In this document: positions 32,765-58,790 of the stretch, one piece after another
Numbering within the stretch: the stretch's first letter is position 1
How the letters are laid out: each line of letters opens with the position of its first letter
Assembly (NCBI RefSeq): GCF_003991135.1
Contig: NZ_CP016379.1
Coordinates: 682,001-746,000 of the forward strand
Direction: 5' to 3'
Origin: Anoxybacter fermentans
GTDB taxonomy: Bacteria > Bacillota > Halanaerobiia > DY22613
Length of the DNA stretch: 64,000 nt
Made by a program: the position numbers and the translations under genes
Notes under the pieces: generated by a model
The model's database searches: none
Told to the model about the DNA's origin: nothing
Seen by the model: the letters and a program-made list of their open reading frames with translations, nothing else

Positions 32765-32990
32765 AAAGACCAGGCAGCTTGGTCTTTTTTTATTGAAGTC
32801 TCCTGTTTAACGGAGTCTAGGCTATAACTGCAGTTGGTGGCCAGAATAACTAGTTTCACGCCTTGTTTTAGTGGAATTTGGATTATACCCCTATTGTTTT
32901 ATGGCATCTAGAAGGGAAATAAATATTTTTGTTGAATTATAATGATAAAATATTTTACCATAAATATAATTTTAAATTAGATAAGGAAGA
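32765..32990. CRISPR. Relict left end of the CRISPR super-locus
   Basis: A cassette terminator (AAAGACCAGG...TTGGTCTTT, 32765-32791) is followed by one degenerate family A repeat (32797-32830, ending TCTAGGCTATAAC), the usual A-to-C link (GCAGTTGGTGGCCAGAA) and one degenerate family C repeat (32851-32887, ending TTTGGATTATAC). No spacers are left. Confidence 0.65.
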
Positions 32991-32996
32991 ATTTCA

Positions 32997-33593
32997 ATGA
33001 AGGCTAGAGATATTGATATTCGTTATGTGTTACACGAAAAATTAAATAAACAATATGGTAATGATGAAGACACTGTAATTTTAGATGAACTTGTAGTGTG
33101 CCAGGGAGAAGCTTGTGTAGATGTAGCTGTTATAAATGGTACTATTATTGGTTATGAGATTAAAAGTGAAAGGGATTCCTTAGACAGACTACCCAATCAA
33201 ATAAATGCTTATAACAAGGTTTTTGATATTGTTTCTATTATAACAGGCAACTGCCACTTAGATAAGATTAGTTCAATTGTTCCTGATTGGTGGGGTATTT
33301 ATTTAGCTATTTCTACAGAGACTGGCCTGGAGATTAAACAAGTCCGTTCTCCAAAACCAAATAAAAATGTTGAGGCATTTGCTCTTGCTCAATTTCTTTG
33401 GAGAGAAGAAATATTAAATTTGTTATCAAAATATAATTTAGACAAAGGGATAAAAAGACTTCCAAAATTTAAACTATGGCCTTATATTGCTGAGAATATA
33501 CCATTGGATGAACTTAAAGAATATGTAAGGTCTTGTTTAAAATCTAGAAAAGAATTAAGAGCTTTGAAAAATTTAAAGTCGAACACTGTATAA
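32997..33593 (+). CDS. sce7726-family protein (PD-(D/E)XK nuclease-like)
   Basis: 198 aa. The core reads VILDELVVCQGEACVDVAVINGTIIGYEIKSERDSLDRL: E, then D in VDVAV, then E-x-K in YEIKSERD, the restriction-nuclease-like active-site order seen in sce7726 proteins. The function of the family is not established; it recurs in phages and mobile elements. AAGGAAGAATTTCA precedes the ATG. It lies between the integrase and the first array and ends in a tail shared with other promoter regions of the element (GTCGAACACTGTATAA). Confidence 0.75.
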   Translation: MKARDIDIRYVLHEKLNKQYGNDEDTVILDELVVCQGEACVDVAVINGTIIGYEIKSERDSLDRLPNQINAYNKVFDIVSIITGNCHLDKISSIVPDWWGIYLAISTETGLEIKQVRSPKPNKNVEAFALAQFLWREEILNLLSKYNLDKGIKRLPKFKLWPYIAENIPLDELKEYVRSCLKSRKELRALKNLKSNTV

Positions 33594-33750
33594 TAATGAA
33601 ATTACGCCCAGGGCATAACCTGGGCAATTTTTATCAATGAATGAGATAGGGAAGAGAAAAGACCAGGCTGTTGCGCCTGGTCTTTTGCATATTAGTAGAG
33701 TCTAAATTGGACCAGAGGAAATTGGATGGGATAAGAAATATAAGCTTTTC

Positions 33751-33864
33751 TTTCAGTCTCCTACTTAGTGGAGTGTAGGTTGTAACAAAGAGATAGGTGC
33801 AGAAATGGGGTTAAGTATCGAACTGAAGTTTCAGTCTCCTACTTAGCGGAGTCTAGGTTGCAAC
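33751..33864 (-). CRISPR. Array, family A, 2 repeats
   Basis: Repeats at 33751-33786 (degenerate distal, ends GGTTGTAAC) and 33828-33864, one 41-nt spacer. The DNA before the first repeat (GAAATTGGATGGGATAAG) recurs as a spacer at 55563-55599, showing that the array was once longer. Confidence 0.85.
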
Positions 33865-34090
33865 CGCAGTTGGTTGACTGGACAAACCGCGTCATTTCGC
33901 CATTCTTGAACAGGTAAAACATCAAATTAAAGCCTTCAGTTTCGCAAATCAATTTTCTGCACAAAACTCTAGGGGGGTTAATGAAAAGCCAATATCTTAT
34001 ATTTTTTACATAAAAAATCATTATTTTCTTTTTTAATTGATTTACTCTTGGAATCCTGTCACTATAACTTTTGCACAAAATGTGCCTTTT
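33865..34090 (-). promoter_or_regulatory. Family A leader, copy 1
   Basis: Begins CGCAGTTGGTTGACTGGACA at the repeat boundary and contains CCGCGTCATTTCGCCATTC and CAGTTTCGCAAATC. The distal inverted-repeat half seen in other copies (GGGGGATTTGCGAAA) is altered to GGGGGGTTAATGAAA. Confidence 0.7.
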
Positions 34091-34101
34091 GCGAAAAAAA
34101 C

Positions 34102-34335
34102 TAAAACTTTCAGTCTCCTATTTAGTAGATCTGAGATTTAATAATTGATAATCAAAACAAACCGCGTCATTTCGTCATTCTTGAACTGACAAAAAGCTAA
34201 TTTAAAGCTCCCAGTTTAGTAAATTAATTTTCTGGACAAAAACCTAGGAGAGATTTAAAAGAAGCTAACATTTTATATTTTCTACACAAAAAATCATTAT
34301 CCTCTTTTTTTGATGATTTTATCCATAAAATCCTG
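34102..34335 (-). CRISPR. Decayed family A repeat plus decayed leader
   Basis: TTTCAGTCTCCTATTTAG at 34105 is the start of a worn repeat, followed by a second leader copy with many substitutions (AAACCGCGTCATTTCGTC, 34158 on). A third worn repeat lies at 34398-34427 and a fourth near 34462-34492. These are inactive relics of an older cassette. Confidence 0.6.
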
Positions 34336-34625
34336 TTTTGACTGGAGAACGTGAAGAGTGAAACCATGCAGTGTGCCTGGACATTTTTATTGGAAGTCTT
34401 ATGCTTAACGGAGTCTAGGTTGCAATAGGTGCTAATTTACCACCTTAGGTTTTATATCTGTGTCTAATACTTAGCGGGGTCTATATTACAATTTCGCAAA
34501 AGGCACATTTTGCGCAAAAACAAAAAGAAAACTTTCAATCCCTTAAATGAGTTTAAGCTACATGTCTTTTGCTTCTTCTAAATTTTCTGGTCTGGCTGGA
34601 AGAGGCAAAGGAGGTATTGAGTAAA

Positions 34626-34865
34626 ATGAAATTTGCTACGAAAAATAAAAGAAATATTTTGGTAGTGATTATTGCAATAGTAATACTGGTATTTATAGTT
34701 TTTAGTTTTCTTGCTAAAAAATTCACTCTAAAAATCGAATTCGAAAGGGATGCTAATAAAACAAAGTTTAATCTTGAAATATCCTCAGTAATAATGTATT
34801 TAGTGGGTATTTCGATGATGAAATACAAGAAAAAAGAAAGTAAGATAAGAAAGGAAAAAAATTAA
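34626..34865 (+). CDS. Small single-span membrane protein, unknown
   Basis: 79 aa from the ATG at 34626, with AAAGGAGGT ten bases upstream. Lys-rich N-terminus, one strong transmembrane helix (residues about 10-29, ILVVIIAIVILVFIVFSFL), then a charged segment with KIEFERDANKTKFNLEI, a short hydrophobic stretch and a Lys-rich tail. I do not recognise it. The good ribosome site argues for a real gene inside the relic cassette. Confidence 0.5.
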   Translation: MKFATKNKRNILVVIIAIVILVFIVFSFLAKKFTLKIEFERDANKTKFNLEISSVIMYLVGISMMKYKKKESKIRKEKN

Positions 34866-35210: not shown

Positions 35211-35561
35211 CTTTCAGTCTCCTAGCTAACGGAGTCTAGGTTGCAACCGCAGCTTGTGGCCAGAACGATTAGTTTCACGCCTTGTTTTAGTGGAACTAAC
35301 ATTTAAATTTTGTCAACCCGCCTGTTAGTATAGGTGGGTTTTTGTTTCAATCCAATTTACGTTCAAACCACTTGCTATGGTTTATATAAGGCTGTTTCAA
35401 TTCCTTCTAGGTAGGCTACAAACTTCACAGGGGACTGGCGGCAAGCCTGGCAAGGTGTTGGTTTCAATTCCTCATAGGTAGGCTAAAAACTTGGAAAAAG
35501 ACACGGGATACAAAATCTGGCAGCCCGACGTGTTTCAATTCCTCATAGGTAGGCTAAAAAC
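35211..35561 (-). CRISPR. Composite array: A x1, C x2 (worn), B x3
   Basis: A at 35211-35247; worn C at 35272-35307 and 35344-35368 flanking the recurring hairpin spacer (CAACCCGCC...GGTGGGTTTTT); B at 35394-35423, 35461-35490 and 35532-35561. The B repeats have the variants CTTCTAGG/CTCATAGG and CTACAAAC/CTAAAAAC. Confidence 0.88.
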
Positions 35562-35726
35562 CCATTTAAATGGCGTAAATAAAGGGCTTGCTAGATTAAG
35601 GAAAATCATTATGAGCATAACTCTTGAATGCTGAAATAGAGACAACCCTTGAAATATCAACAAACCTGCACGTTTTAAGGTTGTCGTCGCACCCCAGGGG
35701 TTTTTGCACTATCGGGGATCGACGAC
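35562..35726 (-). promoter_or_regulatory. Family B leader, copy 1 (165 nt)
   Basis: Starts CCATTTAAATGGCGTAAATA next to the array; the distal part has the inverted pair GTCGTCG...CGACGAC around CACCCCAGGGGTTTTTGCAC. All family B leaders below share these features. Confidence 0.85.
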
Positions 35727-36009
35727 AATTGATTATTAACTCTTTCTAAACATATATTAGACAAAAAATGAAAAATTCCTCTTTTTAGAGAGTCCAGATC
35801 ATAACCTGGGCAATTTTTATGATCAACGTGTAAAGAGGTAGAAAAAAAGGAGGACCAGCTGTAGCATCTGGTCCTTTGTATTAAGAGTAATCTGTTTTCT
35901 TTTTTTAAAGTCATTCCCACGACGAGACAAGACTTTCGGTCTTCTGCTTATCTGAGTTAAATTGCAACCACCAGTGGGGACTGGCGGTGGATCTCATTTT
36001 TAGGAAGTA

Positions 36010-36295
36010 TTTTCAGTCTCCTACTTAGTGGAGTCTAGGTTGCAACCGCAGTTGGTTGTCTGGACCTCATAGGTAGGCTACAAACCCACCCTTTGGGTGG
36101 ATTGTATAGCCATTCCTTTAGTATGTTTCAATTCCTTCTAGGTAGGCTAGAAACAAAAATTTTGTAAGGTACTTATACCAATTATCAAAACATGAGTTTC
36201 AATTCCTTCTAGGTAGGCTAGAAACTTAAGAAACTTTATAGAATACACATCTACAACAAACACGTGTTTCAATTCCTTCTAGGTAGGCTAGAAAC
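36010..36295 (-). CRISPR. Composite array: A x1 joined to B (1 partial + 3)
   Basis: A at 36010-36046, then a truncated A leader (CGCAGTTGGTTGTCTGGA) fused in mid-repeat to a partial B (36066-36085), then B at 36125-36154, 36196-36225 and 36266-36295. The first B spacer (CCACCCTTTGGGTGGATTG...) reappears with one change at 41775-41813. Confidence 0.9.
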
Positions 36296-36460
36296 CCATT
36301 TAAATGGCGTAATTAAAGGGCTTGTTAAATTAAGGAAAACTTTTATCAGGACAACATTAGACTGCCGAAATAGAGGTAATCCTTGAAATATCAACAAACC
36401 TGCACATTTTAAGGTTGTCGTCGCACCTCAAGGGTTTTTGCACTACTGGGGATCGACGAC
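36296..36460 (-). promoter_or_regulatory. Family B leader, copy 2 (165 nt)
   Basis: Same length and ends as copy 1. Instead of the usual ATTAGAC box it is followed by a TATAATTT/CGAACACTGTATAA promoter-like segment (36507-36530) and then the DUF6575-like gene pair, which appears inserted here. Confidence 0.85.
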
Positions 36461-36656
36461 ATTCAATTATTAAAAATTTCTCTTTCTAGAAAGAAAATAG
36501 TATAATTTAAAGTCGAACACTGTATAACAATGAATGGGATATCCGACGTTCCGTGTAACGAAGTGGAGTAAAATATGGGCGTACTCACTTGTAGATATCT
36601 TTGGTTATGCACCGTTTTTTGCTACACTTTCTTATTTTTTTATATGTTTATATGAT
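36461..36656. other. Junction between leader copy 2 and the DUF6575-like pair
   Basis: Holds the promoter-like TAGTATAATTT with CGAACACTGTATAA, also seen near 33575, 38545 and 49134. No ORF. Confidence 0.45.
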
Positions 36657-37850
36657 CTAACTATCTTTTATATTAGGATTACTTATCTCATTTACTTCAA
36701 GTAATATGCTAGTTATTTTTTCTTCTTGGGTAACATAATTAAATTCATATATCTCTTTAATTTTAACTTCTGCAAACATTGGTACTTCAAAAACATTTTT
36801 ATATAAATCCTCTGAAAGTTCCCCAACAATTCGTTCTTCATCAACAGTAATAAATTCAAAACTATATTTATTCATATTTATTCCTACAAGTTTACCCTGA
36901 TAACTGTTTATTTCTGTCATTTCTTTCTCATCTAATTCAAATACTTCTAAAGCTTTATTAATATCTTCAATTGTTAATGAAACTGCATTAGATTTTAAAT
37001 CTGGAGAACCCCAAATAGTTTTAATCTCAGTGTTCCCATCCTTAAGAGCTTTTAATAGTTGCCTAAACTTTATTTTAGATTTCAAACTCAATGATTTCAT
37101 CAAAGAACTAAGTTTCTCTCGATCCCCTTTAGCACTTAGTAAATTCATTAATTTTTCAAGAGGTTCAGAGACAGGAGTTTTATTAAATAAATTAGCAGAA
37201 TGTTTTGATACGAGTCTAACACCAAACGAACCTTCAAAAACGGCTACAGTTTTTAAAATTGTAGCTTCTTTAATATTTTTTGGTATTCTTCCACGAATTC
37301 CACCAGATTTATAAGCTAAAGAATGTATTAAAGTCTGTAAATTTAACAAAATAGCCCCTAAAACACCTGTATCAATTTCATTTAAATGAACACTATCACC
37401 TGTTAAAGATAAATCTATCACATCTCTTCTGGTTCTGGTGGCAAACACACATGGATCTTCGGATAAATCAGGAAGTGTTTTATCTTGAATATTAAGAAAA
37501 GCATCCTCATCTGGTAAGTCTTCTTTACTTAGCTGATTTGGAGTAATCTGGGTTACAATGTTTGATTGGTCATGAAAAAAAGTTTTTACATCCCATAACC
37601 AACCATCTTCAGGACAATTAAAAGCTTCATAAAGAGAAATAAGTCCACGTTTGACGGAAGACAATCTATGATTACTTACTGGAACATACAACCATCTTTC
37701 TGAATCTTCATCAAAATCAATCCAAACAGCTAAATATTTTTGACCTGAAATACTTTCACAACTAAATAGCCTGGGACCATCATAATACTCATAAATCTCT
37801 AAAATCTTTAATTTTCCGATAAAATCTAAACAAATATAGTTTTCATTCAT
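36657..37850 (-). CDS. DUF6575-like protein, unknown function
   Basis: 397 aa from the ATG at 37850; the frame extends upstream, but GGAGG lies nine bases before this ATG and the upstream gene ends here. The N-terminal domain has YYDGPRLFSCESISGQKYLAVW and ERWLYVPVS, which I associate with DUF6575; the middle is helical and Leu-rich, and the C-terminal 70 residues look like an SH3/OB-type beta domain (GKLVGINMNKYSFEFITVD). No catalytic motif is recognised. The start overlaps the stop of the 137-aa gene, so the two are translationally coupled. The location among CRISPR cassettes suggests a defence or addiction role (inference). Confidence 0.65.
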   Translation of the reverse strand: MNENYICLDFIGKLKILEIYEYYDGPRLFSCESISGQKYLAVWIDFDEDSERWLYVPVSNHRLSSVKRGLISLYEAFNCPEDGWLWDVKTFFHDQSNIVTQITPNQLSKEDLPDEDAFLNIQDKTLPDLSEDPCVFATRTRRDVIDLSLTGDSVHLNEIDTGVLGAILLNLQTLIHSLAYKSGGIRGRIPKNIKEATILKTVAVFEGSFGVRLVSKHSANLFNKTPVSEPLEKLMNLLSAKGDREKLSSLMKSLSLKSKIKFRQLLKALKDGNTEIKTIWGSPDLKSNAVSLTIEDINKALEVFELDEKEMTEINSYQGKLVGINMNKYSFEFITVDEERIVGELSEDLYKNVFEVPMFAEVKIKEIYEFNYVTQEEKITSILLEVNEISNPNIKDS

Positions 37851-38256
37851 TTGACTCATCCTCCATATATACCTCAAAAAAAGTATGAGGTTCAACGCCT
37901 GGTTTAACCCACCATGTTATATGTGATCCACCATAAGTTTCTAATATCAATCCATGATTCCTTTTAATTGTTCCAATGGCTATGTACGGATATTTTTTTT
38001 TAAGTGCTGGTAATGATTTTCGTTTTTTAATTAAGTCTTTTATATCTTTAAAAACAGATATTCCACACGCATTACAATTATCCTCTCCTTTAAATTTTCG
38101 TCGAGGTTGTAATATTTTAAGAGGAATAAAATCTTCCGCAGTTACCTTATTATTATTTCTTATTCCACGGTAAACTACTACTTCATCTCTTCTTGCTGTA
38201 TCTGGAGGACAACCTTTCGGAAAATAATCGGGCCAACTAATTAAGTTTTCTGCCAT
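37843..38256 (-). CDS. Unknown 137-aa partner of the DUF6575-like protein
   Basis: Start at ATG 38256 with AAAGGAGG at ideal spacing; upstream codons lack a site. A mixed alpha/beta soluble protein with CNACGI (two Cys), a Lys-rich helix (DLIKKRKSLPALKKKY) and an aromatic C-terminus (GSHITWWVKPGVEPHTFF). Not recognised. It forms a two-gene operon with the downstream gene, in toxin-antitoxin-like compactness, but no toxin fold is visible. Confidence 0.6.
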   Translation of the reverse strand: MAENLISWPDYFPKGCPPDTARRDEVVVYRGIRNNNKVTAEDFIPLKILQPRRKFKGEDNCNACGISVFKDIKDLIKKRKSLPALKKKYPYIAIGTIKRNHGLILETYGGSHITWWVKPGVEPHTFFEVYMEDESNE

Positions 38257-38680
38257 GCATTTACCTCCTTTATTTATATGAAAATACAATTATGAATAAA
38301 TAAAATTTTTGTTTTATTAAATTAGACCTGACATAAGTAATATGTATTCAGAAAAAGATCGACGACATTCTAATTTTAAAAAAATTTTCTCCTTTAAATC
38401 TTACCTTCAAAAACTGAATTTTGCACCCAGTTTAAATATTTACGCCAAAATTTTAACGTCTTTCCCACTCTTTTTTTCTAAATATATATAATTAGACAAA
38501 TAATAAAAAATTCCTCTTTTAGGGATAAAAAAATGGTATAATTAAACACGAACACCTGTATAACGATGAATTTACCTGTGGGATAGAGAAAGCTCAGATC
38601 ACAACCTGGGCAATTTTTATTAACGAATGAGGTAGGGAAGAGAGAAGGCCAGGCTATTGCGCCTGGCCGTTTTTATTGGG
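38257..38680. other. Return into cassette sequence after the inserted pair
   Basis: Begins with the promoter region of the pair, then a leader B end (GATCGACGACATTC at 38359) duplicated relative to 36453-36462, an ATTAGACAAATAATA box (38492), a TATAATT/CGAACACCTGTATAACG segment (38547-38571) and the terminator at 38645-38676. Confidence 0.5.
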
Positions 38681-39475: not shown

Positions 39476-39962
39476 GGGTCTCCTACTTATCGGAGTTTAG
39501 AATGCAACCGCAGTTTGTGGCCAGAACGATTAGTTTCACGCCTTGTTTTAGTGGAACTATCATTCAAACTTTGTCAACCCGCCTATTAGTATAGGTGGGT
39601 TTTTGTTTCAATCCTTGTTTTAGTGGAACTTGCATTCAAACTTGTCCCAGATGTTGACCTCCAAAACAAAATCCTCCCGTTTCAATCCTTGTTATAGTGG
39701 AACTTGCGTTGCTTATATAGGGCTGTTTCAAATCCTGACAGGTAGGCTACAAACCGTCACGGTTCAGGCACCTACTCAGGTGAGTTATGATATGTTTCAA
39801 TTCCTTATAGGTAGGCTACACACCAAGGAGTACTTCAACTTTTTATGAATACTTCCCGAAAGAGTTTCAATTCCTTATAGGTAGGCTAGAAACATTCGCT
39901 ATACTGATTAACATAACTTTACCATACACTTAGTTTCAATTCCTTATAGGTAGGCTAGAAAC
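39476..39962 (-). CRISPR. Composite array: A x1, C x3, B x4
   Basis: A at 39476-39508; C at 39533-39569, 39605-39641 and 39679-39709 (truncated); junction TGCTTATATAGGGCT; B at 39725-39754, 39794-39823, 39864-39893 and 39933-39962. The first C spacer is the recurring hairpin spacer. Confidence 0.92.
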
Positions 39963-40127: not shown

Positions 40128-40277
40128 TTCTAAATATGTGTTATTAGACAAAAAATGAAAAATTCCTCTTTCTAGAAAGAAGAAAAACAGCTTAGGTCAT
40201 ATCCTAGGCAATTTTTATGATCAACGTGAGAGGTAGGGAAGAGGGAAAGCCAGACTATTGCGCCTGACCGTTTTTAT

Positions 40278-40765
40278 TGGGGTCTCCTACTTAGCGGTGT
40301 GTAGGTTGCAACGCTCGAATTAAACCAGATTTCCATTACGGACAGCAAGTTTCAGTCTCCTACTTAACGGAGTCTAGATTGCAACGCAAGTGGTTTTAGA
40401 GGCATCGAATGGGGTGCTTCGAAGTTTCAGTCTCCTAGCTAACGGAGTCTAGGTTGCAACATAGAGTGATCGAAGAGATCGCTCGGAATGATGAAGATGC
40501 GTTTCAGTCTCCTAGCTAACGGAGTATAGGTTGCAACACCGGGGATTATTGGACTTTTAAAACTTCACATTATAAGTTTCAGTCTCCTAGCTAACGGAGT
40601 ATAGGTTGCAACAAATCTGCCAAATTCATCGAAGCCCGGGCTGTCATATATGAGTTTCAGTCTCCTACTTAGCGGAGTCTAGATTGCAACGCAATGTATA
40701 ATTTATATAATAATGATTATTATATCATGTTTCAGTCTCCTACTTAGCAGAGTCTAGATTGCAAC
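40278..40765 (-). CRISPR. Array, family A, 7 repeats
   Basis: Repeats start at 40278 (partial), 40349, 40424, 40501, 40576, 40654 and 40729; spacers 36-40 nt. The first spacer (GCTCGAATTAAACCAG...) is identical to the one at 47023-47058. Variants alternate between CTAGCTAACGG and CTACTTAACGG. Confidence 0.95.
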
Positions 40766-41245
40766 CGTAGTTTTTTGCCTGGACAAACCGCGTCATTTCG
40801 CCATTCTTGAACAGCCAAAAAGCCAATTTAAAGCTCTCAGTTTCGCAAATCGATTTTCTGCACAAAACCCAGGGGGATTTGCGAAAGCGATTTGAGATAG
40901 TTTGAGATGATATAAGCTGATAAATATCTGTTTTTCAAGGTCATCTTTCAATTTCCCATGATTGTAACGAAATACTTCTTATAACTCTGAATAGCTCCAA
41001 ATTTAGCGATTTTTCTACCCATTATTTACCATGGAAGAATTCCCCAATCGGGACATTTGCGAAAATCAACTTTTCTCCTCTTTTAGAGTTTCTCCCCAAA
41101 CACTTATAATCCTTCTTCTAAACAGTATTTTTCCCTTAAATTACAAACAATAGTCAGACAAATTTTGATAAACGTTAATTTCAGATCAGCTGGATATTTT
41201 TTGTGTTTCCAATGGTGTCTTGTTCTTGAAATGAGGAGTGGAGAA
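40766..41245 (-). promoter_or_regulatory. Family A leader, longest copy
   Basis: Starts CGTAGTTTTTTGCCTGGACA, then CCGCGTCATTTCGCCATTC and the inverted pair TTTCGCAAATC...GATTTGCGAAA (near 40847-40897). Unlike other copies it continues about 340 nt further before the next array, perhaps the full-length leader. No ORF. Confidence 0.75.
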
Positions 41246-42113
41246 GAAGTCTCCTAACTAACGGAGTCTAGGTTGCAACGAAATTAGAAGTTTGCACACT
41301 TTTATAGTCGGTACCACGTTTCAGTCTCCTAGCTAACGGAGTCTAGGGCAACAAGAATATGAAGCTGGGGTATTAAATCAAGCACTTTATATGTTTCAGT
41401 CTCCTAGCTAACGGAGTCTAGGTTGCAACCATGAAAAATTCTTGGTTTTTTATCCCGGGATATATGGACGTTTCAGTCTCCTAGCTAACGGAGTCTAGGT
41501 TGCAACAAAAGAAAAAGGAATTAAGCCACAGGAAGTTTTAGCAAAATTGTTTCAGTCTCCTACTTAACGGAGTCTAGATTGCAACGATATAGCAAAAATC
41601 AATATTACGTTTTGTTTTTTACACCGTTTCAGTCTCCTACTTAACGGAGTCTAGATTGCAACAGGCACATACACTATCAGAGTCTCGGCCTCAGGTTAGT
41701 TTCAGTCTCCTACTTAACGGAGTTTACATTGCAACCGCAGTTGGTTGTCTGGACCTCATAGGTAGGCTACAAACCCACCCTTCGGGTGGATTGTATAGCC
41801 ATTCCTTTAGTATGTTTCAATTCCTTCTAGGTAGGCTAAAAACTGGAGGTTTATACATCAGAGAACTGGAAGGAGTTTCTGTTTCAATTCCTTATAGGTA
41901 GGCTAGAAACCTAAGCCACGAAGAAATATACGATGAAAGCTTCATGTTTCAATTCCTTATAGGTAGGCTAGAAACTCAATTTGTACGGCATCAAATTTGA
42001 GTACAAAAAGGAGTTTCAATTCCTTATAGGTAGGCTAGAAACTTGATTATGGGACCATTAGGAAGATACGGAGCGTATTTATGGTTTCAATTCCTTATAG
42101 GTAGGCTAGAAAC
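41246..42113 (-). CRISPR. Composite array: A x7, then B (1 partial + 5)
   Basis: A repeats at 41246, 41318 (two bases short), 41393, 41470, 41549, 41626 and 41699; the same A-to-partial-B fusion as at 36047 (41736-41774); B at 41814, 41881, 41946, 42013 and 42084. Confidence 0.95.
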
Positions 42114-42278
42114 CCATTTAAGTGGCGTAAATAAAGGGCTTGCTAGATTAAGGAAAATCCTTACGAGCATAACTCTGGAACACTGAACTAGAGATAATCC
42201 TTGAAATATCAACAAACCTGCACATTTTAAGGTTGTCGTCGCACCCCAGGGGTTTTTGCACTATCTAAGGTCGACGAC
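42114..42278 (-). promoter_or_regulatory. Family B leader, copy 5
   Basis: 165 nt; starts CCATTTAAGTGGCGTAAATA. Box at 42292. Confidence 0.85.
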
Positions 42279-42531
42279 TTCTAAATGTATTATTAGACAA
42301 AAAATGAAAAATTCCTCTTTCTAGAAAGAAGAAAAACAGCTTAGGTCATATCCTAGGCAATTTTTATGATCAACGTGAGAGGTAGGGAAGAGGGAAGACC
42401 AGGCTGTCATGTCTGGCCTTTTGCTTATTAGATTGCAACCAGAAGAAATTGAATGGGATAAGGAACCAGGAGATTTATGAACATGATCTATAGAGGAGGT
42501 GTTGATTTTTTTGTTTTTGGGGTGTTCTAGG

Positions 42532-43732: not shown

Positions 43733-43840
43733 AAAAAACACCCTTTCAGTAGATGTTATTAGTAAAGATTCTATAGATGATTTAATTTTCCTTCCTGGGA
43801 AGGAAAAAAGTCCAGGCTGTTGTGCCTGGCTTTTTTATTG

Positions 43841-49155: not shown

Positions 49156-49338
49156 AAGCTTTAAATACAATCCTACGTGTTATCGGAAATTTAAGTTTTT
49201 AGATTATTGGATGAAAAGATTAATGATTTTCATGTGAAAAAGCAGGTATTTCGGAAAATAATGGCGAAATTATTTTTATATAACATTAATGTATTGGAGA
49301 ATATAGGTAATAAATTTAGGGCAAGGAGGAGATTGTTT

Positions 49339-49992
49339 ATGAAACAGAAATTTTTGCCGCTTTTTATTAAAGTAGATTTTAGGCTTGATATTATAAAGTT
49401 ACGAGAATTAGATGAAAATATTTTTACAAAGATAAAAAATAAATATGGCTTTAATACTCTTGAAATTAATAAGGATGAGGTTATATTACGCGGTGGTTTT
49501 CCTATGTTTTCATGTATATTTTCCGAAGAAAGTATACAGATTGTAACTTTTACTTCTGACATACAAACGGCGATTGATAGTATTATTGATTTAGTTAACC
49601 AAATAAATATTTTGGCTGAGATAGAAATTCAATATATTTCTTATATTGAAATTGCTAATTTATTAAAATTTCAAGACAATAAAGATTTGTTTGGGTTTTT
49701 TGTCAACTGTAAAGATTATAGTGATGGAGTAGAGATAAGTGGTGCATATTTAACATTAGATACTATAGATGGCAAGAAAAATATTAAGTATATTTTTAAA
49801 TTTGAAGACGAAAAAGGATTTTCTGCAATTGCCTTAAAGGCATTACTTAATTTTAAAGATGACATAGAATTAAAAGGATTGTTAGAACATAATATTAAAT
49901 ATTTACAAGAAAAAATGACTTACTTTTTAAGTACACGGAGTGGTAAATTTCTACTCGGTGTGGGGGTGAATAAAATTGAACAAAAACGTTGA
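49339..49992 (+). CDS. Unknown 217-aa protein, first gene of the holin-like pair
   Basis: Start at ATG 49339, eight bases after AAGGAGGA; the upstream in-frame TTG at 49207 has no site. A mixed alpha/beta soluble protein (FIKVDFRLDIIKLRELDENI, a hydrophobic middle FPMFSCIFSEESIQIVTF, and a helical C-terminus). No motif recognised. It overlaps the next gene by 17 bases, so the products probably work together. Confidence 0.6.
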   Translation: MKQKFLPLFIKVDFRLDIIKLRELDENIFTKIKNKYGFNTLEINKDEVILRGGFPMFSCIFSEESIQIVTFTSDIQTAIDSIIDLVNQINILAEIEIQYISYIEIANLLKFQDNKDLFGFFVNCKDYSDGVEISGAYLTLDTIDGKKNIKYIFKFEDEKGFSAIALKALLNFKDDIELKGLLEHNIKYLQEKMTYFLSTRSGKFLLGVGVNKIEQKR

Positions 49993-50791
49993 TTACTTAC
50001 AAGATTATTACAGCTTTTTAGGTTGTGCAAAGGAGATATTTGAAGCGAAGAAGATCGAAAATGCGATAGATGAATTATTAAAAAATGCTATGTCGCTTCA
50101 TAATATGATTTTTAATGTCGATGAAGAAGAAAAGAAGAATATTCATCAAGGTTATTTAAGTGATTTGGAAACCGTATTGCCTTATGTGGAATTAACATAT
50201 GAATTAACATATGATGAATTATATAAAAATAAAGCTATAAAGCCAGCAAGTTCACGCAATAGTTTTCATATATTATACCAACCAAAAAGAAAGGTTAGGT
50301 ATATAATTATGAACTTCTTTAGTGGTTTTCCACTTGTACAATTGGGAGAAATTAAGCATGCTTGGAATAACTTTATTGAATTTCGCACAGCAAAATTATT
50401 TTTCGCATTTTTAGGAACTATTTTAACATTTTTGGTTGGTACTTTTTCAATTCACCATTGGACATTATTTATAATGACAATAATACATCTTTTAACTAGA
50501 CTCATGGCAAATAGATATAGAAATCAGGATGATTATGTTCATTGTTATAGAAGTATTCAATTATTCGCTTGGCCTTACATGTTATTGGTTTTAGGAAATT
50601 TTTTAAATTATAGTATAACGATTACTGGCTTTCCAGAGGATACGTTTTTTATTTTCTGGGTATGGTGGTTAATTTGGTCAGAATTGAAAGGGATTGTGGA
50701 AAATGCTAAAGTCGCGAATCTACCTATTCCACCAATGTTAGAAGAAATTATAAACAAATCAAAAGATAAAAATATCGGAATGCCTTTATAA
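49976..50791 (+). CDS. Protein with C-terminal holin-like membrane domain
   Basis: 271 aa, TTG start after GGGGGTGAATAAAA. The N-terminal 115 residues are soluble and helical. Residues about 130-240 have three to four transmembrane helices, and the end WSELKGIVENAKVANLPIPPMLEEI closely resembles the C-terminus of the phage holin family 4 (SIxENAxxxGLPxPxxL). A soluble sensor-like part joined to a pore-like membrane part is typical of abortive-infection effectors. The function is inference; it could also be a plain membrane protein. Confidence 0.65.
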   Translation: MNKNVDYLQDYYSFLGCAKEIFEAKKIENAIDELLKNAMSLHNMIFNVDEEEKKNIHQGYLSDLETVLPYVELTYELTYDELYKNKAIKPASSRNSFHILYQPKRKVRYIIMNFFSGFPLVQLGEIKHAWNNFIEFRTAKLFFAFLGTILTFLVGTFSIHHWTLFIMTIIHLLTRLMANRYRNQDDYVHCYRSIQLFAWPYMLLVLGNFLNYSITITGFPEDTFFIFWVWWLIWSELKGIVENAKVANLPIPPMLEEIINKSKDKNIGMPL

Positions 50792-50871
50792 CAAAAATCA
50801 TAAAGTTAGGAAAGGCGACGTTTTTCACCACCTTTCTAAGAAATTTATAGACAATGGTATATAATCAAAAC

Positions 50872-51120
50872 ATGATTAATATAAAGCATAGTAGAAATTA
50901 TGTGTACCAGACTGCCTATCACATAGTATGGATTCCAAAATATAGGCGAAAGATCCTTGTTGGTGATGTTCGGGAATTTACTATCAAAACCTTACACCAG
51001 ATTGCGGAGGATAAAGGTTTTGAAATTTTAGCTTTGGAGGTGTGTCCTGATCACATACATCTATTTGTCTCGATTCCTCCCGCTGTTTCTATTTCTCAGG
51101 CTGTTAAATGCTTTAGCTGA
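50872..51120 (+). pseudogene. tnpA: Truncated IS200 transposase TnpA (Y1)
   Basis: 82 aa from the conserved start MINIKHSRNYVYQ (the family is about 130-155 aa). The HUH motif is present (CPDHIHLFVS), but the frame stops at AVKCFS and the helix with the catalytic Tyr is missing. A frameshift near 51105 is likely; no homologous continuation was found before tnpB. Confidence 0.88.
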
Positions 51121-51177
51121 GACTATTAAAAATTACATTGAATTTGCACAAAATATTACTTCCAGGAGGTGAATTCC

Positions 51178-52263
51178 TTGCACATCACTCTCCACCATAT
51201 CAAGTTGTATAAACCTTCCAGGAATAAGCAGGAACAACTTAATCTACTTCTACGGAATTGGAACAAAGGCCTTAGATCAGCCTTGAAAATAATCAAACAC
51301 TGGGGATTTACTTCCTATACCAAAAGCCATAAGCATACTTATCGGGTATTGAGAAATAATTATTCTCTGCCTTCTCAGATTGCTGTAGAATGCAACCGTA
51401 AAGCTATTGAAATTTTCAAGGTCAATCAAATATCCCGGTTTAAGAGTAATGTGCCAGTAAGGTTAGTTAATGGTAAATCCTTTGCTATAATCGTAAAAAA
51501 CGGACGTTACTTTGCTAAAATATTGACACCTAATGGTAAAATTTTTTGTCCCCTGGCCTTTGGCAAATATCAACTTAATTATCTGGCAGATGAACGATAT
51601 ATTATTAAAACTGCTGATTTATACTTCTCTAAGGGCGAATGGTATCTTAATCTGGTTCTGGAATACCAACAAAAGCAAATTGAACCCAAAACTGTTATGG
51701 GCATTGATCTGGGTATAGTTAATCTTGCTTCTGTGGCTGTGATTGACCAGGATAAAAACATTCTACATACTGAGATGTTTTCTGGTCGTGAGCTCAGATT
51801 CAAGCGCCTTCGCTACCGCCAAAAACGAAAATTGAAAAGTAAAAAGGCAGGCAGTCAGAAAATCTCTACTATCAAGGAAAATAGAATCTGCCGGGAAGTT
51901 AACTTCCATATCGCTAATCGAATTATCGAATTGGCAGCCAAAAACAACTCCTTGATTGTGTTTGAAAATTTAAAGAACATCAGAAGTAACATCACTAAAG
52001 AAAAAGATCGACTCTCAAATTATGAGAAAAACTCCTGGGCTTACTACCAGCTAAAAGAATTTGTCAAACACAAAGCCTGCCTGCACGGTATTCCAGTAAT
52101 TGAAATTAGCCCGTTCAAAACTTCTCAGATTTGTTCAACCTGTCAAGCCGAAGGCCAACGAATTACGCAAAGCCTATTCCTCTGCCCAAATGGGCACCGT
52201 CACAATGCCGATAAGAATGCCAGTATTAATATCGCTGTAAGAGGATTACAGCATGTGGGGTAA
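51178..52263 (+). CDS. tnpB: RNA-guided nuclease TnpB (IS605 OrfB)
   Basis: 361 aa, TTG start seven bases after CCAGGAGG. RuvC residues: Asp in VMGIDLGIVNLASV, Glu in LIVFENLKNI and Asp in RHNADKNASINIAVRG; the zinc ribbon is CSTC...CPNGH between the last two. The N-terminal wedge/REC-like part and length are normal, so it should be an active omega-RNA-guided endonuclease. It would keep the IS in place by cutting donor sites. Confidence 0.94.
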   Translation: MHITLHHIKLYKPSRNKQEQLNLLLRNWNKGLRSALKIIKHWGFTSYTKSHKHTYRVLRNNYSLPSQIAVECNRKAIEIFKVNQISRFKSNVPVRLVNGKSFAIIVKNGRYFAKILTPNGKIFCPLAFGKYQLNYLADERYIIKTADLYFSKGEWYLNLVLEYQQKQIEPKTVMGIDLGIVNLASVAVIDQDKNILHTEMFSGRELRFKRLRYRQKRKLKSKKAGSQKISTIKENRICREVNFHIANRIIELAAKNNSLIVFENLKNIRSNITKEKDRLSNYEKNSWAYYQLKEFVKHKACLHGIPVIEISPFKTSQICSTCQAEGQRITQSLFLCPNGHRHNADKNASINIAVRGLQHVG

Positions 52264-52440: not shown

Positions 52441-52442
52441 AC

Positions 52443-52814: not shown

Positions 52815-53721
52815 CTTTCAGTCTCCTACTTAACGGAGTCTATATTGCAACTGGCAGTTAACGCGGGAAGGATATATTAGGAAGGTTCCGTTTCAGTCTC
52901 CTAGCTAACGGAGTATAGGTTGCAACCGCAGTTTGTGGCCAGAACGATTAGTTTCACGCCTTGTTTTAGTGGAACTTGCATTCAAACAACTACATTGAAA
53001 ACTGCAAAGTGGATCCGCCATTCGAGTTTCAATTCTTGTTTTAATGGAATTTGGATTATGACGAGTTTAGGCCAGATGGTACGTTAAACCCAGAAGGGTT
53101 TCAATCCTTGTTTTAATGGAACTTGCATTCAAACTCTGGGCAGAAGAGCTGAAAAATGCAAAAGGCGCAGTGTTTCAATCCTTGTTTTAATGGAATTTGG
53201 ATTATGACTTTAATGATTTTTTACATTATTGCATTCAATGGAAGTTTCAATCCTTGTTTTAGTGGAACTATCATTCAAACATATGAAGTTAACTGTAGCC
53301 CTTCCCCCTAAAAAAATGTTTCAATCCTTGGTTTTAGTGGAACTATCATTCAAACTTAAATATTTTAGAACAATGGTATAATCAAGGAGTGTTTCAATCC
53401 TTGTTTTAGTGGAACTTGCATTCAAACTTGACAATGATGAAGGTCAAAGAATCGAATATGCTAGTTTCAATCCTTGTTTTAGTGGAACTATCATTCAAAC
53501 CATAAGAATTATTATCAAATTCTAAGAAGTATTAGGTTTCAATCCTTGTTTTAATGGAACTTGCATTCAAACAATGATCTTGCTTCTCTATATATAGAAA
53601 CTGGAGATTGTTTCAATCCTTGTTTTAATGGAACTTGCATTCAAACAATAGTTTTCCCCAGACCTACACTACTAATCTTTTTCAGTTTCAATCCTTGTTT
53701 TAATGGAACTTGCATTCAAAC
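52815..53721 (-). CRISPR. Composite array: A x2, C x11 (longest C array)
   Basis: A at 52815 and 52890; C at 52951, 53026 and 53172 (both with a variant 3' part, GGAATTTGGATTATGAC), 53098, 53244, 53318 (one extra G), 53391, 53464, 53536, 53610 and 53685. Several sub-variants of C (TTGCATTC, TATCATTC, TTGGATTA) are interleaved. Confidence 0.95.
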
Positions 53722-53958
53722 CCGTCGTCATTCAAAATTGGCGATATTTCAAGCTTTATCCCACTTTAGTTAGAAAATAAATCGCCTTTCTAATCAGCAA
53801 ATTTTAGCCCAAATCAGCCGTTTTTTAGCATTTTGCCGTAAAATTTCACCTTTGAAAATCGCAGTAATCAAGAGAATTTGCGAGCTAATTTTATCTAATC
53901 GCGATTTCCATTATTTTACTCCGATAATTTTTTTCTATCACCTCTTTCTATATAGATA
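53722..53958 (-). promoter_or_regulatory. Family C leader, copy 3 (237 nt)
   Basis: CCGTCGTCATTCAAAATTGG start; box follows at 53959. Confidence 0.82.
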
Positions 53959-54152
53959 ATTAGACAAAAAATGAAAAATTCCTCTTTTTCGAGAGTCCAG
54001 ATCACAAACTGGGCAATTTTTATCAACGAATGAGGTAGAGAAGAAGGAAGACCAGGCGAGCTAGCCTGGTCTTTTGGAATTTAGAAGCATTAAAGGCTTA
54101 TCAATCCTGAATAAAAGAATAAAACCAGATATTAGATCTGGTCAATATTAAA

Positions 54153-54539
54153 TTAGGATAGGTTTTCCTTTAGATAGAAAATATCTTCTTCATTTTGTAA
54201 TTCCTTGTGTTTGATAAAGGTAATAGTTTTGGAGATTTTATTGACTTTATCTGTCAGTTTATCAAGTTTTTCAGTTGTTGTAACCTTGAATTCAGTAAGA
54301 TCTGCAACTTGGTTGGAAATTACATCAACTTTTTTCTCGATGCGCTCCTGACTGGTTTTGAGTTCTTCAAGTTTAGATTGCATAACATTTTGATTAACTT
54401 CTAATTTTTCAATTTTTGCTTCTATTTTCTCAGTCCTTGAGTGCATTTTAACTTGATTAGCTTCTATTTCTTCAATCTTTGATTGCATTTTAACCTGGTT
54501 TTCTAAAATTTGGTGTAGAATTTTTTCGATGTTATCCAT
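54153..54539 (-). CDS. Coiled-coil protein 2 in a cassette gap
   Basis: 128 aa. Identical plan to the 43430-43732 protein, with an added block of about 28 residues in the coiled coil (MHSRTEKIEAKIEKLEVNQN); the last 60 residues are the same. AAAGGGTGTTTTT precedes the ATG. It occupies the same place in its cassette (after a C leader and a GACCAGGCGAGC terminator), so gene and cassette were duplicated together. Confidence 0.78.
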   Translation of the reverse strand: MDNIEKILHQILENQVKMQSKIEEIEANQVKMHSRTEKIEAKIEKLEVNQNVMQSKLEELKTSQERIEKKVDVISNQVADLTEFKVTTTEKLDKLTDKVNKISKTITFIKHKELQNEEDIFYLKENLS

Positions 54540-54646
54540 AAAAACACCCTTTCAGTAAATGTTATAAGAAAAGATTCTATGGATGATTTAATTTTCCTTC
54601 CTGGGAAGGAAAAAAGTCCAGGCTATTGTGCCTGGCTTTTTTATTG

Positions 54647-54886
54647 GAAGTCTCCTGCTTAACGGAGTATAGTTTATAACCGCAGTTGGTGGCCAGAATA
54701 ACTAGTTTCACGCCTTGTTTTAGTGGAACTTGCATTCAAACTTCCAGGTAATGTGGTTTTAATCAATTATAAGTACTAGTTTCAATCCTTGTTTTAATGG
54801 AACTTGCATTCAAACAGGCAATTCAAAAAGGAATTGCAGACGCTTTTCAGTTTCAATCCTTGTTTTAATGGAACTTGCATTCAAAC
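54647..54886 (-). CRISPR. Composite array: worn A x1, C x3
   Basis: A at 54647-54680 (ends AGTTTATAAC); C at 54705, 54779 and 54850. Confidence 0.9.
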
Positions 54887-55123
54887 CCGTCATCATTCAA
54901 AATTGGCGATATTTCAAGCTTTATCCCACTTTAGTTAGAAAATAAATCGCCTTTCTAATCAGCAAATTTTGGCCCAAATCAGCCGTTTTTTAGCATTTTG
55001 CCGTAAAATTTCACCTTTGAAAATCGCAGTAATCAAGAGAATTTAAGAGCTAATTTTTTCTAATCACGATTTCCATTATTTTACTCCGATAATTTTTTTC
55101 TATCACTTCTTTCTATATAGATA
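54887..55123 (-). promoter_or_regulatory. Family C leader, copy 4 (237 nt)
   Basis: Starts CCGTCATCATTCAAAATTGG; box at 55124. Confidence 0.82.
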
Positions 55124-55375
55124 ATTAGACAAAAAATGAAAAATTCCTCTTTTTCGAGAGTCCAGATCACAAACTGGGCAATTTTTATGATCACCGTTTA
55201 AAGGGGTAGAAAAAAGGGAGGACCAGCTGTAGCACCTGGTCCTTTGCATTAGGAGTAATCTGTTTTCTTTTTAAAGTCATTCCACGATGGCACAAGACTT
55301 TCGGTCTTCTGCTTATCTGAGTTAAGTTGCAACCACCAGTGGGGACTGGCGGTGGATCTCGTGGTTAGGAAGCAT

Positions 55376-56022
55376 TTTCAGTTTCCTACTTAACGGAGTA
55401 TAGGTTGCAACACGGCGGGCGGGACTTCGTGTATATGAGCAAAGAGCAGATGTTTCAGTCTCCTACTTAGTGAAGTCTACATTGCAACACTCAAGGAACT
55501 GATACGATAGAATTTAAAGCTACGTTGTTTCAGTCTCCTACTTAACGGAGTTAAGTTGCAATCAGAAGAAATTGGATGGGATAAGGAATATAAGCTTTTC
55601 TTTCAGTCTCCTAGCTAACGGAGTCTAGGTTGCAACATTCTCCAGAACCAGACACATGCTTTTCGTGCCAAACCAGTTTCAGTCTCCTAGCTAACGGAGT
55701 CTAGGTTGCAACGATGATGTATTACTGTCAAGGAAAGTCGATTTCTCAAATAGCGTTTCAGTCTCCTAGCTAACGGAGTCTAGGTTGCAACAAACAGCTG
55801 AGGAGTACATGAGAGAAAATGATTCATTCAGTTTCAGTCTCCTAGCTAACGGAGTCTAGGTTGCAACTCAGCAAGAAGAATCATTATCCCGAAGAGGGCC
55901 CTTTTGGAGGTTTCAGTCTCCTACTTAGCGGAGCCTAAATTGCAACTTACTTTGACTATCCATCAAGATACGCATCTGATGCAAAGTTTCAGTCTCCTAC
56001 TTAGCGGAGCCTAAATTGCAAC
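55376..56022 (-). CRISPR. Array, family A, 9 repeats (longest A array)
   Basis: Repeats at 55376, 55452, 55527 (worn), 55600, 55676, 55755, 55831, 55910 and 55986. The spacer at 55563-55599 nearly matches DNA beside the array at 33.7 kb. Confidence 0.95.
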
Positions 56023-56145
56023 CGCAGTTTTTTGCCTGGACAAACCGCGTCATTTCGCCATTCTTGAACAGCCAAAACATCAAATTAAAGCCTTCAGTTT
56101 CGCAAATCGATTTTCTGCACAAAACCCTGGGGGATTTGCGAAACA
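56023..56145 (-). promoter_or_regulatory. Family A leader, copy
   Basis: Starts CGCAGTTTTTTGCCTGGACA; inverted pair TTTCGCAAATC...GATTTGCGAAA near 56097-56143. Confidence 0.8.
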
Positions 56146-56193
56146 TGATCTGTAGAGGAGGTGTTGATTTTTTTGTTTTTGGGGTGTTTTAGG

Positions 56194-56551
56194 CTTTCAG
56201 TCTCCTAGCTAACGGAGTCTAGGTTGCAACCGCAGTTGGTGGCCAGAACGATTAGTTTCACGCCTTGTTTTAGTGGAACTATCATTCAAACTTTGTCAAC
56301 CCGCCTGTTAGTATAGGTGGGTTTTTGTTTCAATCCCTGTTTTAGTTGAATTTGCGTTCAAACCACTTGCTATGGCTTATTTAGTGCTGTTTTAATTCCT
56401 CATAGGTAGGCTACAAACAGTGAGTTATAATACCTCTGAAACTGCTCTAAAAGTGTTTCAATTCCTCATAGGTAGGCTACAAACCAGGAGGAGAATATCC
56501 AGAAGAAATACATGTTGGGGCGTTTCAATTCCTCATAGGTAGGCTACAAAC
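56194..56551 (-). CRISPR. Composite array: A x1, C x2, B x3
   Basis: A at 56194-56230; C at 56255-56291 and 56327-56363 (variant TTTAGTTGAATTTGCG) around the recurring hairpin spacer; B at 56389 (GTTTTAATTCC), 56455 and 56522. Confidence 0.92.
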
Positions 56552-56716
56552 CCATTTAAATGGCGTAAATAAAGGGCTTGCTAGATTAAGGAAAATCCTT
56601 ACGAGTATAACTCTTGAACGCTGAAATAGAGATAATCCTTGAAATATCAACAAACCTGTGCTTTTTAAGTTTGTCGTCGCACTCCAGGGGTTTTTGCACT
56701 ATTGAAGATCGACGAC
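56552..56716 (-). promoter_or_regulatory. Family B leader, copy 9
   Basis: 165 nt; box at 56752. Confidence 0.85.
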
Positions 56717-57017
56717 AGTTGATTATTAAAAATTTCTCTTTCTAAACATATATTAGACAAAAAATGAAAAATTCCTCTTTTTAGAAAGAAGAAAAACAGC
56801 CCAGATCATAACCTGGGCAATTTTTATGATCAACGTGTAAAGAGATAGAAAAAAAAAGAGGACCAGCTGTAGCGCCTGGTCCTTTGCATTAGGAGTAATC
56901 TGCTTTCTTTTTTTAAAGTTATTCCCGCGATGACACAAGACTTTTGGTCTTCTGCTTAGCGGAGTTAAATTGCAACCACCAGTGGGGACTGGCGGTGGAT
57001 CTCGTGTTTAGAAAGTA

Positions 57018-57054
57018 CTTTCAGTCTCCTAGCTAACGGAGTATAAGTTGCAAC
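57018..57054 (-). CRISPR. Single family A repeat
   Basis: One 37-nt repeat directly next to an A leader (57055); no spacer on its left. An array reduced to one repeat or a new acquisition-ready site. Confidence 0.8.
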
Positions 57055-57185
57055 CGCAGTTTTTGGCCTGGACAAACCGCGTCATTTCGCCATTCTTAAA
57101 CAGCCAAAAAGCCAATTTAAAGCTCTCAGTTTCGCAAATCGATTTTCTGCACAAAACCCTGGGGGATTTGCGAACGCGATCTGTA
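57055..57185 (-). promoter_or_regulatory. Family A leader, last copy
   Basis: Starts CGCAGTTTTTGGCCTGGACA; inverted pair TTTCGCAAATC...GATTTGCGAA. It is followed by AAGGAGGTGTTGATTTTATTG and a worn A fragment (57220-57245). Confidence 0.78.
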
Positions 57186-57263
57186 AGGAGGTGTTGATTT
57201 TATTGATGTTTTTGGCTTTCTGTTTCCTGGCTAATGGGATCCACACTGAAGCTAGTATTGTTT

Positions 57264-57834
57264 GGTTTTAATCCTGATAGGTAGGCTACAAACGTTTCGA
57301 ACGACATTTACACTGACGGTTTTGGAAGCAGTTTCAATTCCTCATAGGTAGGCTACAAACCCACAGCCGCCGATTCGCTCATCATGTGTCTCTTCGTAGG
57401 GTTTCAATTCCTCATAGGTAGGCTACAAACGCAATTACATTTGTGCTCATTTTGATATAGAAGGGTTTCAATTCCTCATAGGTAGGCTACAAACGCAATA
57501 AGTGTACTAAAGGCACTAGAAAGACTTGAAAGGTTTCAATTCCTCATAGGTAGGCTACAAACAAAATGAAAGTAGAACAGAATCAAGAAAGAGATTTATG
57601 TTTCAATTCCTCATAGGTAGGCTACAAACTCTTTTACTTCGTCCAAAGTTTCTTCTGCTTTCTCGTTTCAATTCCTTATAGGTAGGCTACAAACCAGGAA
57701 TTGATTACAGTCGAATAACAGCACATTCAAACTTGTTTCAATTCCTTATAGGTAGGCTACAAACTGGAGCAAATCACAGTTTTAAAACAAAAACTTGCGG
57801 ATTAGTTTCAATTCCTTATAGGTAGGCTACAAAC
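57264..57834 (-). CRISPR. Array, family B, 9 repeats (longest B array)
   Basis: Repeats at 57264 (worn), 57331, 57401, 57465, 57533, 57600, 57665, 57735 and 57805. The three leader-proximal repeats read CCTTATAGG, the rest CCTCATAGG. Confidence 0.96.
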
Positions 57835-57999
57835 CCATTAAAATGGCGTAAATAAAGGGCTTGCTAGATTAAGGAAAATCTTTATTAGAACAACATTAGA
57901 ATACCGAAATAGAGATAATCCTTGAAATATCAACAAACCTGCACATTTTAAGGTTGTCGTCGCACCCCAGGGGTTTTTGCACTACCGGGGATCGACGAC
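57835..57999 (-). promoter_or_regulatory. Family B leader, copy 10
   Basis: 165 nt, canonical; box at 58036, then the last cassette terminator at 58097-58123. Confidence 0.85.
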
Positions 58000-58215
58000 A
58001 CTTGATTATTAAAAATTTCTCTTTCTAAACATATATTAGACAAAAAATGAAAAATTCCTCTTTTTTTATGATCAACGGGAGAGGTAGGAAAGAGAGAAGA
58101 CCAGGCTGTCATGCCTGGTTTTATTTAGTTTTTTTTCAGGCCTAGCACTATGTGGATCTTCTGGTAAGTTTGGATCGAGCAATGAAATCAACCTCCTATC
58201 TTTTGTTATTACTTT

Positions 58216-58245
58216 GTTTCAATTCCTCATAGGTAAGCTATAAAC
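58216..58245 (-). CRISPR. Solo degenerate family B repeat downstream of an XRE gene
   Basis: GTTTCAATTCC...GGTAAGCTATAAAC, 30 nt, 48 bases after the stop of the XRE gene at 58293-58784 and on its coding side. No partner repeat within spacer distance. Confidence 0.8.
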
Positions 58246-58292
58246 CAGGCTCAGATTAGGAGAATGATTAATCTACATTTTGTAAGTTTTTT

Positions 58293-58784: not shown

Positions 58785-58790
58785 TGTTTT

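Follow-up and report, generated by a model that had tools for sequence, protein, structure and literature searches.

What do about 20 tandem CRISPR (clustered regularly interspaced short palindromic repeats) cassettes do in a place where no working cas gene accompanies them? The question is raised by a super-locus of Anoxybacter fermentans, found in a 64,000-nucleotide (nt) stretch of its chromosome (here called the window; NCBI RefSeq assembly GCF_003991135.1, contig NZ_CP016379.1, genome positions 682,001 to 746,000). Window position 1 is genome position 682,001, and all coordinates given below refer to the window unless they are marked as genome positions. The super-locus is the cargo of a temperate prophage of 80,329 bp integrated in a tRNA-Leu gene. 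Its most probable role, to which we assign a probability of about 0.72, is that of a phage-borne spacer bank supplying CRISPR RNAs (crRNAs) to the type III machinery of the host.

An ungapped scan with three consensus sequences detects 151 repeats in a single orientation: 63 of family A (GTTTCAGTCTCCTACTTAGCGGAGTCTAGGTTGCAAC, 37 nt), 40 of family B (GTTTCAATCCTTGTTTTAGTGGAACTTGCATTCAAAC, 37 nt) and 48 of family C (GTTTCAATTCCTTATAGGTAGGCTACAAAC, 30 nt). All but two decayed strays at 58810 and 59436 lie within 32792-58245. An initial annotation, made from the letters alone, had counted about 140 repeats of three families; with 149 in the locus the estimate stands, but the lengths or their order do not, as the middle family B measures 37 nt and C 30 nt. 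Its description of a constant family order across some 20 cassettes is borne out, A being followed by B and B by C. Between neighbours of the same family there are 105 regular spacers of 30-45 nt, of which 103 are unique. Twenty leader copies fall into three types (6 behind A arrays, 4 behind B and 10 behind C) and invariably occupy the right-hand end of a cassette, with a leader only behind the last array; the resulting patterns are A-leaderA, A-B-leaderB, and A-B-C-leaderC or A-C-leaderC. Since the leaders lie at the right-hand ends and the repeat ends agree (read as reverse complements, the repeats finish with ACTGAAAC or ATTGAAAC), the arrays are read as transcribed leftward. Terminator-like sites number 35, about twice the 15.0 +/- 3.8 of shuffled sequences, and many of them are bidirectional and situated at cassette borders. 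Arrays, leaders and terminators have thus been multiplied as modules on one element, as the initial annotation held. An assembly artefact is ruled out by the divergence of same-type leaders (mean identity 82-96%, mean difference 4-18%, with 12-18% for the A and C leaders), the near absence of spacers shared between cassettes and the single contig of the genome.

The leaders contain two further features. In leader C an imperfect palindrome is conserved (GTCGTCGCACC..TTTTTGCACTA..GATCGACGAC, e.g., at 36416-36460), which is possibly a leader-recognition site; sequences resembling it are present in two relatives (G001:C21, G005:C10). A shared element, TTAGACAAAAAATGAAAAATTCC, was at first read as the start of cas2. 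It also occurs in the B leaders of the host III-A locus, and it is now regarded as a leader element.

The prophage nature of the element escaped the initial annotation. To the left of the locus, chromosomal genes are followed by tRNA-His and tRNA-Leu genes and then by an integrase. The tRNA-Leu(tag) gene (31256-31340, plus strand; ARAGORN) is the integration site and overlaps the 60-nt core of the attachment (att) site at 31284-31343, an exact direct copy of which is found 80,329 bp away at genome 793,613-793,672; no complete tRNA is present at this far copy. The phage-type tyrosine integrase lies beside attL (31424-32575, minus strand; PF00589, E=8.5e-32). The right border of the array cargo is formed by three helix-turn-helix (HTH) genes of the phage-repressor type (58293-60017, minus strand; PF01381, with phrog_8 and phrog_3 transcriptional repressor matches), and repressor-type HTH genes span 58.3-62.1 kb of the window. 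An excisionase-like HTH protein is encoded at 63109-63459 on the plus strand (HTH_17; phrog_6401 DNA-binding protein and, more weakly, phrog_66 excisionase), and the phage early region runs on past the window. Genes for a helicase, large terminase, portal, head morphogenesis, major capsid, tail, tape measure, holin and endolysin all reside between the att copies. A normal cas locus just past 64 kb, which the initial annotation had named as a ground for refutation, is not there; that ground is occupied by phage structural genes. IMG/VR independently lists genome 736,153-794,389 as a viral record. In the same database the relatives of the terminase are at most 34% identical and include no comparable phage, no other record has A-type repeats and just two others have C repeats. 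The far end of the prophage, still inside the att copies, holds four A repeats with an A leader (genome 790.5 kb) and the relic of an A leader (793.4 kb). With A arrays at that end, all arrays would flank the attP-integrase region in the circular phage. A search of the genome shows that the A, B, C and leader sequences are essentially confined to the prophage, the exceptions being at the III-A locus of the host, which has B-like arrays and a single A repeat.

Which Cas proteins could serve these arrays? The claim that the region has no cas gene is correct for working genes, but a broken cas2 fragment is embedded in the super-locus at 38382-38546 (minus strand), and the genome itself is not cas-less. 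The fragment (KKRVGKTLKFWRKYLNWVQNSVFEGKI, then a stop) lies beside the end of a C leader and is recognized by sequence, by PF09827 (E=1.1e-6; 34 residues with 2 stops at 38379-38480) and by tblastn with the cas2 of a relative's C-repeat type I-B locus (E=6e-10). It is the sole trace of cas2 in a complete genome of one 3.56-Mb contig, which has no intact copy of this gene. With two models cas1 was not found in the genome either; it is present in 34 of 61 genomes of the same search among relatives. Type I cas7 was not found in the genome (PF05107), and the cas3 core gave nothing above the cut-off, Cas5 and Cas8 not having been searched separately. Genome-wide searches for cas1, cas2, cas3, cas6, cas7 and RAMP proteins yielded nothing intact inside the prophage; cas9, cas12 and cas13 had no dedicated models. 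A weak match to the cas3 helicase at genome 750.9 kb proved to be a phage-type helicase.

The host chromosome, in turn, has four effector modules of type III as well as three solitary cas6 genes, in agreement with the earlier suggestion that Cas proteins act in trans. A complete III-A csm1-5 operon with Csx1 is located at genome 637-645 kb and is flanked by B-like arrays (the III-A locus, genome 636-646 kb, includes the one A repeat). Two Csx11/Cmr modules lie at genome 37-44 kb, inside a BREX-1 (bacteriophage exclusion) operon, and at 132-140 kb. In the former (genome 37.7-44.5 kb; L010), Cmr1, a Csx11-type Cas10, Cmr4 and other RAMP proteins are nested between PglX and PglZ of the BREX-1 operon. 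The fourth, a III-F module at genome 2,614-2,619 kb (L015), encodes Cas10f, Cas5f, Cas11f and Cas7f, with no array of the A, B or C family adjoining. Both the HD and the GGDD motif are retained in the III-A Cas10; GGDD is missing from the three other Cas10-like proteins. The cas6 genes are found at genome 856, 2,384 and 3,470 kb and, like the Cas10 genes, are free of internal stops. By homology, the 856-kb Cas6 is nearest to the Cas6 encoded beside the A-like arrays of relatives. The nearest homologues of the 3,470-kb Cas6 belong to a type I-B locus whose repeats are C-like and to further loci with C repeats. The search for matching repeats at cas loci, proposed in the initial annotation, gives a mixed picture: the III-A locus has B-like repeats and one A repeat, but a genome search with the C repeat found no C array in the host.

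The spacers bear a mark of the effector type. Type III effectors need crRNAs that are antisense to mRNA, and type I effectors do not. When the two strands of each spacer are compared by the genome's own codon statistics, the plus strand is the better coding one in 78 of 103 cases (p=1.6e-7), with 30 of 39 for A, 17 of 27 for B and 31 of 37 for C. In the same codon test, true sense 38-mers from genes reach 87% as a positive control, and 1363 spacers of C-type arrays from other low-GC bacteria reach 54%. Prophage and control spacers differ overall (Fisher p=1e-5) and for C alone (p=2e-4), the difference for B alone being not significant; after correction for the power of the test, about 85% of the prophage spacers are sense-oriented versus 55% of the controls. 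A simple count of open frames does not give a clear strand bias (36 vs 24). Leftward transcription together with the plus-strand coding bias means that the crRNAs would be antisense to mRNA. This antisense orientation of the spacers is a type III signature, strong for A and C and weak for B. From the bias it follows that C repeats appear to serve type III here, though they are tied to type I-B elsewhere. The published share of coding-strand spacers is 65% for type III and 55% for I-B (PMC8482600).

A bank serving the host would work as follows, expression, Cas6 processing, type III loading, target identity and acquisition in other hosts being the parts that we infer. About 20 leaders would drive leftward transcription of pre-crRNA from the prophage, and the three solitary Cas6 enzymes of the host would cut the array transcripts. 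The four type III complexes may then load the crRNAs and recognize the RNA transcribed from rival phages or plasmids. The bank would have been expanded via tandem duplication and recombination of leader-array modules, its spacers having presumably been acquired separately at each leader with adaptation enzymes provided in trans, most likely in earlier hosts with cas1-cas2.

Several observations weigh against this scheme. Taken alone, the strand bias of B is weak (17 of 27; Wilcoxon p=0.007, sign test not significant). The 2,384-kb Cas6 is paired with the B repeats by elimination alone, and the B repeats of the host III-A locus show 3-4 mismatches over 37 positions to the prophage B consensus. 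Searches with the spacers yielded no confident protospacer: among phage records there was one marginal match only (E=0.03, with concatenated spacers), although phages of this lineage are hardly sampled. Against the own genome and 40 relatives they returned no protospacer, the hits being the arrays and two short partial matches. The capacity of the prophage for excision and packaging is putative, as judged from its gene content. Two IMG/VR matches to back-translated spacer patterns, seemingly a doubly targeted virus, were rejected because the super-locus itself is in the provirus record.

The same facts could be read as the remains of defunct systems, whose arrays piled up in a decaying prophage and no longer yield useful crRNAs. 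The lack of cas1 and of an intact cas2 in the genome, the broken cas2 fragment and degenerate cassettes such as the one at 34390-34492 all suit such a history, and so does the variability of the A arrays, which contain 39 repeat variants in 58 copies versus 1-3 variants in up to 71 repeats in related arrays beside cas1. This mixture of A variants was likely caused by repeated recombination between cassettes. The variation is, however, limited to a few hairpin-loop and far-end positions. Among 40 internal A repeats, the 14 nt that supply the crRNA tag and one arm of the hairpin show variation at two positions alone (in three copies and one copy), and free variation is seen at the loop positions 15, 16 and 19 and at positions 26 and 30; in the C repeats variation is confined to 4 of 30 positions. 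A near-invariant tag and hairpin beside leaders that have diverged far more is what would be expected under continued use, although gene conversion could contribute. The strand bias is still present in the spacers, and the Cas6 and Cas10 genes have kept their reading frames. A mere relic is consequently an unlikely description of the locus.

Rather less probable is that the prophage crRNAs flood the Cas6 and type III complexes of the host as an RNA anti-CRISPR or decoy, shielding the prophage from host immunity. Single viral repeats do work as RNA anti-CRISPRs (PMC11656645), and the prophage repeats far outnumber those of the host III-A arrays. A decoy, however, has no need of more than 100 different, strand-biased, full-length spacers, and in place of solitary repeats the prophage carries multi-spacer arrays with leaders; moreover, the two host III-A spacers that were checked match nothing in the prophage stretches examined. 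A decoy effect could still be a side effect of a spacer bank. The least probable account, and a very improbable one, is that a prophage integrated by chance into a chromosomal CRISPR cluster of the host and that the association is accidental. It draws on the III-A locus with its related B repeats about 70 kb away, and it is largely refuted by the positions of the att copies, as every cassette lies between them, with cassettes at either end of the phage genome. Beyond the att copies the search turned up just a handful of repeats, those of the III-A locus, and the integrase and att are on the opposite side of the arrays from the structural genes.

A phage-borne bank for the type III machinery of the host thus remains the preferred reading, and the prophage probably supplies nearly all the memory for the CRISPR machinery of this cell. 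A bolder extension, offered tentatively, is that the prophage is the immune memory of the host: the chromosome keeps the genes for processing (Cas6) and for type III effectors but none for adaptation, and the phage may collect, multiply and carry the spacers of three systems from host to host, a split mobile immunity with one half on each.

How the bank grew can be traced in part from its junctions. The usual A-B junction reads GCAAC-CGCAGTTxGTGGCCAGAACGATTA-GTTTCACGCC; its start resembles leader A (CGCAGTT...) and is followed by a degenerate B repeat. In several cassettes the B-C junction cuts inside a B repeat (GGAACTTGCGTT joined to GCTTATATAGGGCT). The simplest history would be that a few fusions gave rise to the A-B and A-B-C composites, which then underwent tandem duplication and recombination. 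The cassettes starting at 40276 and 46986 have their left flank and first spacer in common and then diverge, with different leader ends. The arrangement is seen in its simple form in a cas1-bearing relative of the same family (G001, locus L168). There, csm, cas1, cas2, cas4 and csa1 are accompanied by a one-repeat stub and by three arrays, with 7, 5 and 6 A-like repeats; each has spacers of its own and a leader, several hundred bases long, that is near-identical to the others. The many parallel acquisition points that the initial annotation envisaged are therefore likely for the past, given the shared old ends and the modules of this relative, but not for the present. As the genome has neither cas1 nor an intact cas2, this strain cannot be acquiring spacers now unless another replicon brings in an adaptation module.

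The cassettes, all on the minus strand, are described here from left to right on the basis of the repeat scan and the leader copies, a formula such as A1-B1-C3 giving the number of repeats per family. A remnant of one A and one B repeat without leader (32792-32889) is followed by A2 with leader A (33750-34060), A1-B1-C3 with leader C (35211-35792) and A1-C4 with leader C (36010-36526). Between this C leader and the cas2 fragment lies a two-gene unit (36657-38289) that encodes a DUF6575 protein together with an unknown protein of 148 aa; the two may form a pair acting in defence or anti-defence. The series resumes with A3-B2-C3 (38675-39440) and A1-B3-C4 (39472-40193), both with leader C, then A7 with leader A (40276-40926), the cassette whose oldest end is shared with that at 46986. 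Next come A7-C6 with leader C (41243-42344), A2-B5 with leader B (42532-43290), A6 with leader A (43838-44412), A3-C6 with leader C (44759-45629), A3-B8 with leader B (45851-46920), A2 with leader A (46986-47256), and A6-B1-C3 (47265-48147) and A1-B2-C6 (48366-49144), both with leader C. Three plus-strand genes at 49207-52263 interrupt the row. They encode an unknown protein of 261 aa, a holin-like protein of 271 aa and an IS605-type TnpB of 364 aa (51169-52263), which places a member of this RNA-guided nuclease family within the super-locus. Beyond them stand A2-B11 (52815-54010) and A1-B3 (54644-55175), both with leader B, A9 with leader A (55375-56183), A1-B2-C3 with leader C (56194-56782), A1 with leader A (57018-57215), C9 with leader C (57264-58065) and a lone C repeat (58216-58245; repeat scan).

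Some sequences recur among the cassettes. One B 'spacer' common to 39570-39604, 48460-48494 and 56292-56326 is a terminator-like hairpin (AACCCGCCT..AGGTGGGTTTTT) opposed to the array transcription, and two C arrays (36086 and 41775) have another hairpin sequence, CCACCCTTTGGGTGG, at their old end. On the minus strand, two small genes of coiled-coil type resemble each other (43430-43741 and 54153-54539); each lies behind a B leader, and both were apparently duplicated along with their cassette. To the right of attR (genome 793,757-801,289; L180, L208) there is a second integrase gene, probably truncated, and 7.6 kb farther right a third, imperfect copy of the tRNA-Leu end; together they probably represent a second, smaller element in tandem.

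If the spacer-bank reading is true, CRISPR memory can be outsourced to a phage and spread by it, and lysogeny can deliver a ready-made library of type III guides. The locus would also provide a natural test case for whether several type III complexes can work in a single cell on trans-supplied crRNAs of three families, and for how leader-array modules multiply; no paper on tandem modules of this kind came up in the literature searches. The viral CRISPR arrays described to date are small; here about 20 leaders, three families and more than 100 spacers are carried by a phage of 80 kb.

Cas-less arrays on viral genomes are already known (reviewed in PMC11656645). The portogloboviruses of the Sulfolobales carry mini-CRISPR arrays of 1-2 spacers with one repeat type (Medvedeva et al. 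2019, PMC6858448). They too have leader-bearing arrays without cas genes, are presumed to use host Cas proteins and have been assigned a proposed role in conflicts between viruses. The present element differs from them in its roughly 150 repeats, 103 unique regular spacers, three families and about 20 leaders, which set it apart from mini-arrays in the narrow sense, and in its setting, a tailed bacterial prophage in a host that possesses type III effectors and is without adaptation genes. Prophages of Clostridioides difficile likewise contain cas-less arrays (PMC6079278), which are expressed and served by chromosomal cas operons. Those arrays are of type I-B, their hosts mostly have a complete adaptation module, and tandem multi-family cassettes are not described in that review. 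Huge phages lacking interference and integration genes carry host-like repeats and may use host Cas proteins (PMC7162821), but their arrays are compact, with a median of six repeats, on genomes of more than 200 kb, whereas array cargo makes up about 30% of the length of this 80-kb prophage. Type III arrays served in trans share with it the bias towards coding-strand, mRNA-antisense spacers and type III modules without adaptation genes of their own (PMC8482600). Those systems use a co-resident type I adaptation module, which this genome lacks, and here the arrays are phage-borne. L168 of G001, the nearest relative available, also has A-like repeats and near-identical tandem leader-array modules bearing different spacers, although that locus adjoins csm and cas1-cas2-cas4-csa1 and has a single family of uniform repeats. 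The prophage of A. fermentans differs from the known cases in its scale, its three repeat families, its tandem modules bearing some 20 leaders, its type III signature and a host without adaptation genes.

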